Below, piece after piece: positions 11,943 to 64,000 of a DNA stretch of 64,000 bases (the first letter of the stretch is position 1; every line of letters begins with the position of its first letter). Both the position numbers and the translations under genes were made by a program. This stretch comes from Anaerolineae bacterium (GTDB lineage Bacteria > Chloroflexota > Anaerolineae > Anaerolineales > Villigracilaceae): assembly GCA_017303655.1 (NCBI GenBank), contig JAFLCE010000005.1, positions 1 through 64,000 of the forward strand, written 5' to 3'. The notes beneath the pieces were generated by a model, which was given only the letters and a program-made list of their open reading frames with translations, did not search any database and was not told where the DNA came from.

Positions 11943-11965
11943 GTAGGGGCGAGGTCTCCTCGCCC
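11943..11965. repeat. GTAGGGGC palindromic repeat, copy 1
   Basis: GTAGGGGCGAGG followed by its complement: stem GGGCGAGG/CCTCGCCC (11947-11954, 11958-11965) with a TCT loop. It is related to copies at 24620 and 63165. Confidence 0.6.
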
Positions 11966-24042: not shown

Positions 24043-24061
24043 ACGGGTATAATTTAGTTTA

Positions 24062-24136
24062 TTAGTCGAGTAGTTAAATAGTTACGTAGTTTTGTGGTAA
24101 CTACCGAACTACCAAACTATGAAACTACAAAACTAA
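24062..24136. repeat. 8-nt-period inverted hairpin element (GTAGTTNN)n, copy 1
   Basis: Left-arm hexamers start at 24070 (GTAGTT), 24078 (ATAGTT), 24086 (GTAGTT) and 24094 (GTGGTA); an outer TTAGT lies at 24062. The complements AACTAC, AACTAT and AACTAC start at 24107, 24115 and 24123, with ACTAA at 24132. The result is a hairpin of 6-bp helices separated by 2x2 internal loops at an exact 8-nt period. It lies between the divergent GH63-like and MaoC genes. Confidence 0.8.
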
Positions 24137-24155
24137 CAAACGAGGAGACTAACTC

Positions 24156-24605
24156 ATGGCTGGACTTTATTTTGAAGAATTTTCTGTTGGGCAAACGGTC
24201 ACAACCCTTTCGCGCACGGTTGGGGAAGATGCCATTAATACCTTCGCAGGCTTAACCGGCGACTACAACCAGATCCACACCGATGCCGAGTTTGCCAAAG
24301 CCACACCGTTTGGTCAACGCATTGCACATGGGTTGCTGGGCTTGTCCATTGCGACGGGCTTGATCATGCGTACGGGTATGCTTGAAGGCACAGTCATTGC
24401 CTTTCGCGAAATTCAAGAATGGAAGTTCGTCAAACCCATTTTTATTGGCGATACAGTTCATGCGGTCTTAACCGTCGCTGAAACCAAAGCATTACCGCGC
24501 ATCGGCGGCGGTGCTTTGATCGCCCAAGTGGAAGTCCGCAATCAAAGCAATGAAGTGCTTCAAAAAGGCACGTTAAATTTACTGGTAATGAGCAAGCCGA
24601 AATAG
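24156..24605 (+). CDS. MaoC-family dehydratase (R-specific enoyl-CoA hydratase-like)
   Basis: This 149-aa hot-dog-fold protein begins GLYFEEFSVGQTVTTLSRTV. The hydratase-2 motif follows in FAGLTGDYNQIHTDAEFAKATPFGQRIAHGLLGLS, with the catalytic Asp/His pair in the segment D-Y-N-x-I-H. Family members hydrate enoyl-CoA in fatty-acid or polyhydroxyalkanoate metabolism; the physiological substrate here is unknown. SD GAGGAG lies 9-10 bases upstream of the ATG. It is monocistronic, downstream of a large palindromic element and upstream of a GTAGGGGC repeat. Confidence 0.9.
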   Translation: MAGLYFEEFSVGQTVTTLSRTVGEDAINTFAGLTGDYNQIHTDAEFAKATPFGQRIAHGLLGLSIATGLIMRTGMLEGTVIAFREIQEWKFVKPIFIGDTVHAVLTVAETKALPRIGGGALIAQVEVRNQSNEVLQKGTLNLLVMSKPK

Positions 24606-24619
24606 GTTTTGCTGTAATC

Positions 24620-24665
24620 GTAGGGGCAAGGCTTGTGCCACGAAGTGGTATCACCTCGCCCCTAC
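24620..24665. repeat. GTAGGGGC palindromic repeat, copy 2 (with nested hairpin)
   Basis: GTAGGGGC (24620-24627) and GCCCCTAC (24658-24665) form the outer stem. An inner TGCCAC/GTGGTA hairpin lies between. It sits in the 78-bp gap between maoC-like and pbp genes. Confidence 0.65.
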
Positions 24666-60612: not shown

Positions 60613-61410
60613 CTACTTGTGCTTTTCTTTCTCAAGCCTTCGGGTGATTAGTAGTAAAAGGGTAGAGACTGTAATCAACACAACAGACAAGGAAAGCGCG
60701 ACGCCAATATTACGCTCAAAGCCAAGATAAATCGCCATGGGCATGGTTTGGGTCACGCCTTCTAGATTTCCTGCGAACAAAATGGTTGCTCCAAATTCAC
60801 CGAGGGCGCGTGTCCAAGTTAGGATCGCGCCGCTTATCAAGGCACGCCCTGCGAGAGGCAGCATGACGGCTGTTAACATCTGCCATTGATTTGCGCCTTC
60901 CACGTTGGCGGCTTCTTCGAGTTGCTCATCGATCTCGGCGAAACCGATCCGCGCCGAGCGGATGTAAAGTGGTGCAGCCACAAATAATTGAGCAAGTATC
61001 ACAGCCGCCGTTGTAAAGGGAAGGCTGATGCCGACCTCACCCAGGATCGAACCAAAGATTCCACGGCGACCAAAGGCGATCAATAAGGCAAGTCCTGCCA
61101 CGGACGGCGGCAGGACAATCGGCAGGTCAATGATCAGCTCAATGGCGGTTTTGGAGCGCATCTTCCAGCGTGCCAGCATGTATGCCAGCGGTGTTCCGAA
61201 GAGGATGGCGATCAGGGTGGTGAATGTGCTGGTGATTAAACTCAACCTCAATGCATTGAGTGCCTGCTCTGAAAATGCGTTCGTGAAAAAATCGTCACTA
61301 ATGGAGCGGATTAAAACTGCAGAGAGGGGCAATAAAAATAATGCCAGCATAAAAAAGCTGGGAAGAATAAAAAGCCATATTACGTGTGAAGAACTGATTG
61401 ATTTTTTCAT
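60613..61410 (-). CDS. modB: Molybdate ABC transporter permease
   Basis: This 265-aa protein has about six transmembrane helices. Landmarks: LRLSLITSTFTTLIAILFGTPLAYMLARWKMRSKTAIELIIDLPIVLPPSVAGLALLIAFGRRG, the ABC-permease EAA region EQLEEAANVEGANQWQMLTAVMLPLAGRALISGAILTWTRALGEFGATILFAGN, and GVTQTMPMAIYLGFE. The pattern is typical of ModB/CysT-type permeases. It lies 49 bp downstream of modA in the PadR operon. No modC ATPase gene follows; the next gene is convergent. Confidence 0.92.
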   Translation of the reverse strand: MKKSISSSHVIWLFILPSFFMLALFLLPLSAVLIRSISDDFFTNAFSEQALNALRLSLITSTFTTLIAILFGTPLAYMLARWKMRSKTAIELIIDLPIVLPPSVAGLALLIAFGRRGIFGSILGEVGISLPFTTAAVILAQLFVAAPLYIRSARIGFAEIDEQLEEAANVEGANQWQMLTAVMLPLAGRALISGAILTWTRALGEFGATILFAGNLEGVTQTMPMAIYLGFERNIGVALSLSVVLITVSTLLLLITRRLEKEKHK

Positions 61411-61459
61411 GATTCAAAAAGTGGCGCAAAGCAGCCATCCTGCCACTCGTATTTTCTGC

Positions 61460-62251
61460 TTACTGTATGGGACCAAAGCCCCATTTCTCTAGAATGGCTT
61501 GTCCTTCTGCCGAAAGGATGTAATCAACGAATACCTGTGCAAGTTCGGTGTTTTCAGAATTTACCAGCGGGGCAATGGGATATTTGGCGATGACATTTAA
61601 TTCTGCAGGAATCTCAATGGATTTCAAACCTGGTGCAGCGACTGAATCGGAGGTGTACACAATGCCCGCATCCGCTTCGCCCAACTGAACTTTGGCGACA
61701 ACTTGCTTGACGTTATCTTCGTTGGAAACGACATTTGCCAGCACCGTGCTCAAGAAGTCGTTTCCGAATGCGGTATCCATCAATGCAAAGGACTCACGCG
61801 AATATCTTCCAACGGGGACTTCCTCGGCGGCGAGTACCAGCTTGATGCCGGGCTTGGCAAGGTCTTCGAGCTTCTCGATGCCAGCAGGGTTGTTTGTAGG
61901 AAGGATGACTACCAGTTGATTGGTGAGGAAAATTTGCGGTGTGTTACTCGCGATAAAACTGCCAGTGACCAAAGTGTCCATTTCTTTGGCGTTGGCGGAA
62001 GCGAATACATCTACCGGCGCGCCTTCTTCGATCTGGGTACGCAGGGTTTGTGATCCACCGAAGTTGAAGGTAACAGTGACACTGGGGTTGGCGGCTTCAA
62101 AGCTCTCGCCAATCTCTGTGAATGCATCGGTCAGGGATGCGGCGGCGAAGATAGTCAGGGTATGCGAATCAGGCATCGGCGTGGTAGGAGCCGTTTTGCA
62201 TCCTGTAATGAACAAGACAAATAGAATAAGCAAATGTAGATTGTGTTTCAT
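61460..62251 (-). CDS. modA: Molybdate-binding lipoprotein
   Basis: A start at 62251, two bases after the PadR stop (TAAAAATG), gives 263 aa. The lipobox is LFITGC (Cys18). Landmarks: LTIFAAASLTDAFTEIGESFEAANPSVTVTFNFGGSQTLRTQIEEGAPVDVFASANAKEMDTL and VQLGEADAGIVYTSDSVAAPGLKSIEIP. The conserved anion-contacting Ser/Ala of the A-A-A-S-L-T motif and the GIVYTSD block match ModA. It delivers molybdate or tungstate to the ModB permease. Confidence 0.92.
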   Translation of the reverse strand: MKHNLHLLILFVLFITGCKTAPTTPMPDSHTLTIFAAASLTDAFTEIGESFEAANPSVTVTFNFGGSQTLRTQIEEGAPVDVFASANAKEMDTLVTGSFIASNTPQIFLTNQLVVILPTNNPAGIEKLEDLAKPGIKLVLAAEEVPVGRYSRESFALMDTAFGNDFLSTVLANVVSNEDNVKQVVAKVQLGEADAGIVYTSDSVAAPGLKSIEIPAELNVIAKYPIAPLVNSENTELAQVFVDYILSAEGQAILEKWGFGPIQ

Positions 62252-62253
62252 TT

Positions 62254-62811
62254 TTATTTTCTTGAGAGTTGGAATTGGATTTTTATATCTGACATCCATC
62301 GCTGAACCGATTGCATTTGTTGCAGACGAAGGTCAAGACTTAGGCGGTTGTAGGTTTGTTCGGGCGGGAGGTGCTCAATAAGAGTTTCAAGTTGTTCGAT
62401 CTTGGTGTCGATCTCTGTTAATTGAGATTGATAAATTTGGGAAAGGATTTCAGGGCGGTAGAGCTGGGCAAAATACAGCCGGGTAAGGAATTCCAGGCGG
62501 ATCGAACGGGCTGTTGTGCTGATGTCCGTTTCGAGCCATGCAAAGAAGCGTTTGCGTCCACTGGCGGTGATGTGCAGCATTTGGCGGGCCGGGAGTTTCT
62601 CTTGCGCAACCACGCGAGCAGAAATATCGCGGCGGGTTTCAAGCCGCTTCAAAATGGCATAGGCTTGGCTTTGGCTTAAGTGCCAGACCTGACCCAACTC
62701 GATAGTGAGTTGTTGATGCAGGTCATAGCCGTGGCTGGGCTTTTCAATAAGAAAGCCTAGCAATGCGAATTCGGGGGAGAGGTTGCCCGTGTGATGTTCT
62801 TTTTTAGCCAT
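62254..62811 (-). CDS. PadR-family transcriptional regulator of the mod operon
   Basis: This 185-aa protein has an N-terminal winged helix: EFALLGFLIEKPSHGYDLHQQL, WHLSQSQAYAILKRLETRRDISARVVAQEKLPARQMLHITASGRKRFFAWL. A C-terminal helical dimerisation region (~95-175) follows. This is the PadR layout. The gene starts inside a long palindrome that also contains its -10 box, which implies autorepression. Its stop is two bases from modA. It is presumably the regulator for molybdate uptake; no molybdate-binding (MOP) domain is present, so the inducer is unknown. Confidence 0.9.
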   Translation of the reverse strand: MAKKEHHTGNLSPEFALLGFLIEKPSHGYDLHQQLTIELGQVWHLSQSQAYAILKRLETRRDISARVVAQEKLPARQMLHITASGRKRFFAWLETDISTTARSIRLEFLTRLYFAQLYRPEILSQIYQSQLTEIDTKIEQLETLIEHLPPEQTYNRLSLDLRLQQMQSVQRWMSDIKIQFQLSRK

Positions 62812-62840
62812 ATATACTCACTCAGTGAGTATATATGGCT
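62806..62840. promoter_or_regulatory. Perfect operator palindrome over the PadR start codon
   Basis: A perfect palindrome with 17-bp arms and one central base (C at 62823), core ATACTCACT-C-AGTGAGTAT. It spans the -10 box, transcription start and start codon of the padR gene, the ideal place for autorepression. Confidence 0.85.
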
Positions 62841-62959: not shown

Positions 62960-62988
62960 TTGACACGCCCCATTGCACATGTTATATA
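62960..62988 (+). promoter_or_regulatory. Promoter of the SAM riboswitch transcript
   Basis: A consensus -35 TTGACA (62960-62965), a 17-bp spacer and TATATA -10 (62983-62988). The start is predicted near 62995, about 20 nt before P1. Confidence 0.75.
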
Positions 62989-63063
62989 TATATCTGAACA
63001 ATTTACGGATATGCTCATCCAGAGAGGCTGAGGGACCGACCCTTTGAAGCCTCGGCAACCGAT

Positions 63064-63142
63064 GTAGTTAGATAGTTTGCTAGTCAAATAGTTTGGTGGT
63101 CAACCACTACGAAACTATGCAACTACAAAACTACTAAACTAA
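63064..63142. repeat. 8-nt-period inverted hairpin element, copy 2 (inside SAM riboswitch P3)
   Basis: Left units start at 63064 (GTAGTT), 63072 (ATAGTT), 63080 (CTAGTC), 63088 (ATAGTT) and 63096 (GTGGT). Right units start at 63113 (AACTAT), 63121 (AACTAC), 63129 (AACTAC) and 63137 (AACTAA). It has the same 8-nt period as the copy at 24062, with one more unit. Confidence 0.75.
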
Positions 63143-63164
63143 CCACGGTGCCAACTTCGGCAGT

Positions 63165-63187
63165 GTAGGGGCGACTTCATGTCGCCC
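63165..63187. repeat. GTAGGGGC palindromic repeat, copy 3 (inside SAM riboswitch P4)
   Basis: GTAGGGGCGAC, loop TTCAT, GTCGCCC (63165-63175, 63181-63187). Confidence 0.65.
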
Positions 63188-63222
63188 GACTCTGGGAGAT
63201 GAGAGATGATATGGTTTCATGT

Positions 63223-63247
63223 CGCCTCTCGCTGAGAGGCGTTTTTA
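63223..63247 (+). terminator. Riboswitch expression-platform terminator
   Basis: CGCCTCTC (63223-63230) pairs with GAGAGGCG (63234-63241), loop GCT, then TTTTT. The P1 3' strand (GATGAGAG) can compete for CTCTC, giving the antiterminator. Confidence 0.85.
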
Positions 63248-63297: not shown

Positions 63298-63636
63298 ATG
63301 GAAATCGGCGAAACAATCTATGTAACCACCCGCGAGGAATTCCGCGAGTGGCTGGAAAAGAATCACAAGAGCTGCAAAGAGATCTGGTTGATCCAGTACA
63401 AGAAATTCACTCAGAAGCCGTCCATTCCCTATGCGGATGCGGTGGAGGAAGCCATCTGTTTTGGCTGGGTGGACGGCTTTGAAAAAGGCATGGACGATGA
63501 ACGCTACGCCAAACGCTTCACCCCGCGCAGGCAGAAAGCCATTTGGACGGACGCCAATATTGAGCGCGCCCGCAAAATGATCGATGAAGGAAAAATGACC
63601 GAGGCGGGGCGGACGTTTCTGCCAAAAGGTGTCTAA
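63298..63636 (+). CDS. YdeI/OmpD-associated-family protein
   Basis: A start at 63298 (GGAG, 6 nt upstream) gives 112 aa; the longer reading to 63199 runs through the riboswitch terminator. Landmarks: TIYVTTREEFREWLEKNHKSCKEIWLIQYKK, SIPYADAVEEAICFGWVDGFEKGMDDERYAKRFTPRRQKAIWTDANIERARKMIDEGKMTEAG. This is the YdeI (DUF1905-associated) pattern; family members are linked to peptide and stress resistance. It is shorter than full YdeI (~190 aa), ending just after the core. It lies directly under a SAM-I riboswitch, an unexpected regulon member. Confidence 0.85.
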   Translation: MEIGETIYVTTREEFREWLEKNHKSCKEIWLIQYKKFTQKPSIPYADAVEEAICFGWVDGFEKGMDDERYAKRFTPRRQKAIWTDANIERARKMIDEGKMTEAGRTFLPKGV

Positions 63637-63638
63637 AC

Positions 63639-64000
63639 GTGCAGGAAGATATCTTCAACATTCAGAAAGTGATCGCGCACTTTGCAACCAGCTTTGACGT
63701 GAAAGACTGGGATGGTTTGCAAGCCTGCTTCACCGAGTCCATTTACACGGATTATTCTGACTTACGTGGCACACCTCCACAGACAGTTTCTGCTGCGGAT
63801 TATGTGAAGTCCCGTCGCGAGTCGCTGGATCATTTGAAACTTCATCATCTGGTGAGTAATTACGAAATCGACTTGCCAAATTCAGGCAGTGCCACCTGCC
63901 GCGCTTCAATGGTCGTCTGGCGCAAAACAGAGACGGAAGAATTTATCACTCATTGCGTCTATAATTTCCAGTTGGTTAAGTTGAACGATAATTGGAAGAT
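63639..64000 (+). CDS. SnoaL-like (NTF2-fold) protein, C-terminus cut by window edge
   Basis: A GTG at 63639, two bases after the YdeI stop (AAAAGGTG upstream as SD), opens a frame to the window edge: 120 complete codons. VQEDIFNIQKVIAHFATSFDVKDWDGLQACFTESIYTDYSDL at the start, LHHLVSNYEIDLP in the middle and CVYNFQLVKLNDNWKI at the edge match SnoaL_4-type cone folds. These act as small-molecule isomerases, hydratases or binding proteins; no specific function can be given. It is co-transcribed with the YdeI-like gene under the riboswitch. Confidence 0.8.
   Translation, partial: MQEDIFNIQKVIAHFATSFDVKDWDGLQACFTESIYTDYSDLRGTPPQTVSAADYVKSRRESLDHLKLHHLVSNYEIDLPNSGSATCRASMVVWRKTETEEFITHCVYNFQLVKLNDNWK

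Follow-up and report, generated by a model that had tools for sequence, protein, structure and literature searches.

How does a metabolite-sensing riboswitch come to carry, in two of its arms, sequences that resemble repeats dispersed elsewhere in the same genome? This question is raised by a SAM-I riboswitch close to the end of the window (the whole 64,000-nt stretch of Anaerolineae DNA analyzed here), for which a sequence-only reading had proposed an intact core with two repeat families inserted into its P3 and P4 arms. The aptamer is matched in full by RF00162 (cmscan, model positions 1-108) at 63012-63205 of the forward strand, with 66.3 bits against a gathering cut-off of 44.4 and an E-value of 3e-13, which bears out the intact core and rules out a failing aptamer. 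The expression platform continues on the same strand with an intrinsic terminator detected by a terminator scan (stem 63223-63241 and T run, to 63247), and a promoter-like TTGACA-N17-TATATA read by eye lies 5' of the riboswitch (62960..62988, forward strand); the latter is weak, because the consensus scan reported no promoter there. The contig then encodes, all on one strand, a 112-aa protein (63298..63636, forward), a SnoaL-like protein recognized by Pfam (63639..64000, continuing past the window end), a GNAT protein and, as the fourth gene, metH, a 1169-aa cobalamin-dependent methionine synthase at about 64546-68055, outside the window. The 112-aa protein, which we take to be YdeI-like, matched 0 Pfam families at E 0.001, and its relatives of 80-95% identity come from MAGs titled Anaerolineales, Chloroflexi and similar.

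A methionine gene thus lies downstream on the same strand, as is the rule for SAM-I, and, given the terminator and the same-strand gene run reaching metH, the riboswitch looks like a SAM-I attenuator heading a presumably co-transcribed operon that includes this gene. The terminator contains CUCUC, to which the 3' strand of P1, GAUGAGAG, is complementary, consistent with the usual mutual exclusion of P1 and terminator. A further 9-bp pairing, found by eye, between the 5' arm of P4 and a terminator arm looks incidental, because a relative that lacks the P4 palindrome (L057) also has GTCGCC in its platform. In its complete core, terminator and gene run to metH, the locus therefore agrees with SAM-I riboswitches in general; it departs from them in its P3 apical loop, which has 86 nt as against 8 nt in the short-armed relatives of its own group (group C, below).

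This apical arm (63061..63146, forward), bounded by GGCAACC and GGTGCCAA, contains a two-armed octamer array recovered by the array detector at 63065-63141, with units of the form TAGTTNNN, namely TAGTT or TAGTC followed by NNN in the 5' side, and NNN followed by AACTA in the 3' side. Folded together with the closing stem, it reaches -35.1 kcal/mol (z -4.5; 0/100 shuffles as low), so that the long hairpin of TAGTT-type units described in the sequence-only reading stands. So does its claim that the same repeat type occupies an intergenic position in the window: a second two-armed octamer array (24055..24151, forward) follows a TATAAT box directly and stops shortly ahead of a MaoC-like gene (24156-24605, Pfam), whose whole 5' leader it may hence fill.

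Across the window's own genome (G000), a triple TAGTT unit with at most one mismatch has 62 matches, as against 1 for the reversed control. Clustered by eye, these form 23 arrays, all of which we viewed; the census covers TAGTT-type arrays only. Three of the 23 fold below -20 kcal/mol, namely the SAM P3, an array before dnaE and the pre-MaoC stretch at 24055, and both the pre-dnaE and pre-MaoC arrays sit directly 3' of TATAAT. Among the remainder, L394 is two-armed but weak, L398 and L402 have their arms set apart and the rest are one-armed. Of the 14 arrays viewed with their gene context, many touch or overlap ORF ends. Rfam found nothing over 13 loci around these arrays. Chance likeness between P3 and the intergenic repeats is ruled out by these matches together with the genome-typed units and the detector controls described below. 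As a separate observation, the two arms of the L398 array (G000:C93:475-559) flank a terminator-like hairpin (AAAGCCG...CGGCTTTT).

The relatives place this arm in an evolutionary frame. A family-level search found SAM-I in 60/61 genomes, own included. Within the genus, 88/89 matches were fetched, the exception being one below the cut-off (G002:C125), and 86 were parsed by a procedure that required the P2-P3 and J3/4 core motifs (L061 and L091 were left unparsed). By downstream gene, these fall into group A (metK, n=34), group B (metY-type, n=27, counting L103) and group C (the window's type, n=24), with one locus, L038, apart; the names metK, metY and, below, dnaE are our own presumptive assignments from the protein sequences. 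AGAG before GAGGGA is also present in 85/85 loci of groups A-C. Taking at least 40 nt as long, P3 is long in 31/86 loci (12 in A, 5 in B and 14 in C) and short in 55/86, a distribution that is incompatible with a long P3 being fixed throughout the genus and disposes of the prospect, allowed for in the sequence-only reading, that relatives might all have the long arm. The short forms are themselves conserved: P3 has 8 nt in 10 group-C loci, with GTTCAAGC in 9/10, and the short P3 reads AAACGAAAGTTAT or AAACGAAAGTTCA in 9/22 group-B loci and AGTCA[AG]CGAAAGTTGAATAT in 10/22 group-A loci. Long P3 arms are lacking in anywhere from 9/23 genomes (site C) to 22/27 (site B). Outside these counts stand the loci of the relatives of the 112-aa protein, since some are from the same genomes: 27/80 were parsed for SAM, 14 have a SAM-I riboswitch and 5 of these have a P3 of at least 40 nt. 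On one contig (G025:C39), a distance of about 1.1 kb separates two SAM-I riboswitches, L093 and L094, whose P3 and P4 are identical.

A strict array detector, which demands three units with no more than one mismatch, was positive in 27/86 P3 arms and in 0/86 P4 arms, 0/86 upstream regions (up to 200 nt) and 0/86 downstream regions (300 nt); four long P3 arms, L044, L068, L082 and L111, escape it. Among P3 arms of at least 60 nt, 23/28 fold below all 100 of their shuffles and 5/28 do not. The array units are 7-9 nt long within the genus, and in the 21 octamer P3 arrays the pentamers are paired at 767/897 positions (86%) and the 3-nt spacers at 113/327 (35%), which is why we read the arm as a string of 5-bp beads with 3x3 internal loops between them. 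The terminators are found in 24/24 group-C loci (the window's included) and 27/27 group-B loci, with long or short P3; group A has them in 6/12 long versus 17/22 short loci.

Two further leaders of the genus present comparable insertions. Cobalamin riboswitch matches occur in 33/37 genomes, above the Rfam cut-off in 24, with several, including that of the window's own genome, below it. Of the 33 loci viewed, G027 and G028 were left unparsed and G021 was a wrong match (a second G028 match was not fetched), and in 20/30 parsed genomes array-like inserts of at least 59 nt lie between CGCAACTGTGA and AAGCCAGG, with 10/30 lacking a long insert. The dnaE genes share a conserved promoter ending in GCGTGCTATAAT (up to 3 mismatches allowed); 34 loci were considered, G005 and G032 giving no leader and a second G000 copy being excluded. 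The leader is a mere 11-12 nt before the ATG in 6/31 genomes, nearly leaderless, and at least 70 nt and array-like in 17/31, some of these being degenerate. Of the array-like dnaE leaders, 11/17 fold below all 100 shuffles and 6/17 do not, G025 and G033 doing no better than their shuffles. The excluded dnaE copy (L366, G000:C26) is 95% identical and perhaps reflects an assembly mixture (contamination 5.82).

Thus, the idea of two repeat families in one aptamer holds as regards the likeness to repeat families and needs widening as regards the single aptamer, for the insertions recur not only at the SAM-I sites A, B and C but also in the cobalamin riboswitches and dnaE leaders. The further suggestion that the elements target stem-loops fits poorly with the dnaE leaders of 11-12 nt in 6/31 genomes and with the detector's 0/30 for arrays inside TPP riboswitches, whose spans are 106-112 nt, and 0/30 inside RNase P RNAs (6 further RNase P matches were not fetched); the one extended RNase P RNA inspected has no tandem array. 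These zeros also rule out arrays as a property of all structured RNAs. In G015 (L145:1930-1950), a TAGTT array starts 3 nt beyond the 3' end of an RNase P RNA match.

On a tree of metK and metY DNA from 36 genomes (G011 left out; 13/33 inner branches open), the presence of these insertions requires at least 11 changes at SAM site A, 5 at B, 7 at C, 8 in the cobalamin riboswitch and 13 in the dnaE leader, gain and loss not being separable in these minima. As the short P3 sequences are conserved between clades, a return to the identical short loop by deletion is unlikely, and most changes in groups A and B are therefore probably gains. Conversely, several group-C arrays have common ends across clades, and same-locus arrays of different genomes have words of up to 30 nt in common (30 nt between the G022 and G019 cobalamin arms, 27 nt between the G026 and G000 SAM arms), indicating that part of the array presence was inherited.

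The arrays also bear the stamp of the genome in which they reside. The T/C ratio of the P3 octamers tracks that of the genome (Spearman 0.62, 16 genomes; 73/10000 permutations), in a test that used 22/31 long P3 arms. G004 and G029 depart from their genome-wide ratio, the SAM, cobalamin and dnaE arrays of G004 being nonetheless alike. Over 65 arrays from 28 genomes, the unit cosine is 0.414 between different loci of one genome versus 0.309 between different genomes at one locus, a within-genome likeness that 0/2000 permutations reach under a model that leaves genome kinship aside. Yet the elements are not plain copies: the longest exact word common to two arrays of one genome is 16 nt, with a median of 9 over 58 pairs. 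Across genomes and loci, the cobalamin arm of G009 and the SAM P3 of G019 have 29 nt in common, the next best being 20, and this word may reflect transfer between riboswitch classes or chance. A genome can also hold different unit types, as does G000 with an octamer in P3 and a heptamer in its cobalamin arm, and the spacers vary strongly, the 59 of the 5' arm being of 21 kinds. A search for a mobilizer of the arrays, restricted to Y1 transposases, found none.

We favor, at a probability of about 0.6, the reading that lineage-typed repeat hairpins have been recurrently gained and lost in leader arms and retained where the core still folds. The locus in the window would then be an otherwise normal, predicted SAM-sensing transcription attenuator 5' of the gene run to metH, in which a long self-complementary representative of a dispersed family of tandem repeats has taken the place of the P3 apical loop. 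Such hairpins would come and go repeatedly in the P3 loop, the variable arm of the cobalamin riboswitch and the dnaE leader, and would persist wherever they fold back on themselves without disturbing the ligand core or the terminator. They would arrive in trans or via a genome-wide process rather than by local drift, and their effect on switching would be near-neutral. The P3 apical loop of SAM-I lies away from the ligand pocket, and the simplest reading of the window's locus would be a functional switch whose long P3 is passive. The observations on which we lean are the recognizable core, the recurrence on the tree, the specificity for P3 within the SAM locus, the genome-specific units and the pairing of the pentamers as opposed to the spacers; among the points against the recurrent gain and loss of dispersed hairpins is the lack of any sign, within a genome, that whole elements were copied recently, common words there having at most 16 nt.

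This very point finds a ready explanation if P3 grew in situ by tandem duplication and hairpin-templated slippage, with a genome-wide mutational habit setting the unit type, for then arrays of one genome would have common units but no exact stretch above 16 nt. The P3 arms of intermediate length, 26-47 nt (L033, L095, L110, L082 and L068), and a 17-nt cobalamin loop in G029, GTTAGCTGTTAGCTAAC, that resembles a seed, are in keeping with such growth. We nevertheless consider it unlikely, as one-armed arrays of the same units exist where there is no hairpin to extend, the 21 kinds of spacers among 59 are unlike fresh slippage products, the two unit types of G000 sit awkwardly with a single genome-wide habit, and the 29-nt word links the cobalamin arm of one genome with the SAM P3 of another. 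Selection for the beaded leader hairpins as a functional RNA module, for example through a common protein or faster co-transcriptional folding of P3, would account for the recurrent use of the same orthologous leaders, for the absence of arrays from TPP riboswitches and RNase P RNAs, and for the strong folding, among the 23 G000 arrays, of only those in the SAM P3 and before dnaE and MaoC. It appears quite unlikely given the many relatives without an array at each SAM site, the variable unit types and lengths, and the fact that no conserved apical loop was noticed.

More speculatively, a lineage-specific process might write beaded hairpins with genome-specific pentamers and 3x3 loops at a few leader positions, namely the SAM-I P3, the cobalamin riboswitch arm and the dnaE transcription start, where they may be read or written by a common factor acting in trans; a common dialect without plain copies would follow from such a process, which we regard as a long shot. 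Least credible of all is that the window's riboswitch merely has the long P3 and P4 of its own lineage by ordinary inheritance, with a chance likeness to intergenic repeats. Long non-array P3 arms do exist elsewhere in the phylum, nearly all metY-type (group B) loci have an extended P4 and some same-locus arrays appear inherited, but the changes on the tree and the short conserved P3 in neighbors contradict this for P3, as do the detector's 27/86 against zero in the three control regions and the genome-typed units.

The P4 arm (63155..63197, forward) poses the question of origin separately. It contains a GTAG-tagged palindrome at 63165-63187 (forward), GTAG GGGCGAC TTCAT GTCGCCC, whose type recurs at both of the places in the window where the sequence-only reading had put it: as a single palindrome, GTAG GGGCGAGG TCT CCTCGCCC, at 11943..11965 (forward; GTAGGGGCGA at 11943), and as an inverted doublet, GTAGGGGCAA...TCGCCCCTAC, at 24620..24665, with arms at 24620 and 24656-24665, one having 1 mismatch. 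The 10-mer GTAGGGGCGA has 7 matches in the window with at most one mismatch, against 2.28 expected (0/100 shuffles reach 7), and 79 copies in the genome, versus 16 for its reversed control. Together with the 62 versus 1 matches of the TAGTT triple, this confirms that the P3 array and the P4 palindrome both represent repeat types that are scattered across the genome. According to PMC3733652, GTAG-REPs combine a GTAG tag with an adjacent stem of 6-9 bp; the P4 palindrome likewise joins GTAG to a 7-bp stem and occurs, like the published REPs and REPINs (PMC3733652, PMC3116915), as dispersed singlets and inverted doublets, in high copy across the genome (the intergenic position was checked in the window only). 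Its 5-nt loop is slightly longer than the 2-4 nt of most REP loops (PMC3733652, PMC3116915), it is located in a riboswitch P4, and its link to a transposase is only suggestive.

On balance, the somewhat better bet is that the palindrome represents a GTAG-type REP that entered P4 independently of the P3 array. The exact tag-plus-stem form stands in P4 at two loci of the genus (G000 and G021, with nearly the same palindrome), and outside it a GTAG-like tag and stem are present in P4 of three SAM-I loci from two other families (G052 twice and G038). Of the two Y1 transposase frames in G000 (L372 and L373), the latter holds one 1-mismatch copy, GTAGGGGCAA, inside the open frame and upstream of the domain; within about 1.5 kb of the L372 gene, the 10-mer is absent even when one mismatch is allowed. 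Against an insertion also stand the limited distribution, any similar P4 being found in only 5/23 group-C genomes, 3 of which miss the exact tag-plus-stem form, and the fact that long P4 stems are common anyway. We consider the palindrome a probable REP, on evidence weaker than that for P3.

The P3 arrays are not REPs, as they consist of tandem units and have no tag; nor do they resemble REPINs, in which two inverted REPs and a conserved core are copied as a unit, given that no word common to two arrays of one genome exceeds 16 nt. Their nearest precedent, compared by description, is that of the STRR sequences, tandem direct repeats of heptanucleotides, which Vioque, in a study cited by PMC2858038 and PMC7593598, reportedly described in 1997 inside the RNase P RNA of heterocystous cyanobacteria, and which similarly are short tandem repeats within a structured RNA gene. 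The window array, with its 8-nt units, is not heptameric, heptamer arrays being present in P3 and cobalamin arms of relatives. Moreover, the arrays described here lie in riboswitch and leader arms and not in RNase P RNA (0/30), comprise octamers as well as heptamers, are two-armed, have several unit types within the one genus and recur at orthologous loops. The small dispersed repeats of cyanobacteria named in PMC3116915 are alike in being short and dispersed, by description and not by sequence. In open-licence papers we found none on a SAM riboswitch with Anaerolineae, and among the matches listed in the open-licence literature no title concerned repeats in riboswitch arms of Chloroflexota.

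The arms of riboswitches thus emerge as repeated landing sites of a dispersed repeat family, with many natural pairs with and without the hairpin in one genus. These pairs allow a direct test of what a large hairpin at its periphery does to the function of a riboswitch. That genomes tend to keep to one repeat type though the elements are not plain copies is a puzzle for the spread of small bacterial repeats. More widely, 79/121 genomes of the phylum have SAM-I, and of 20 longer loci fetched, 9 have tandem-unit arrays by eye (one each in G086, G113, G122 and G176, three in G119 and two in G082) and 11 have extensions not read as arrays. The occurrence of both kinds suggests that P3 tolerates length generally, and arrays appear to be one way of filling it. 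In the distant Chloroflexota G119 and G082 (L374-L379), the SAM-I P3 arrays are built of other heptamers, such as GATTGCA and GAATGCT.

Beside the riboswitch in the window, a perfect 17-bp inverted repeat with a 1-nt gap, AGCCATATATACTCACT/AGTGAGTATATATGGCT (62806-62840), spans the start of the gene for a PadR-family regulator (62254-62811, reverse strand; Pfam) and is a probable operator. The adjoining region, 60613-62299, encodes an extracellular solute-binding protein (SBP_bac_11, Pfam), and an ORF within it, also beside the PadR gene, is presumably permease-like.
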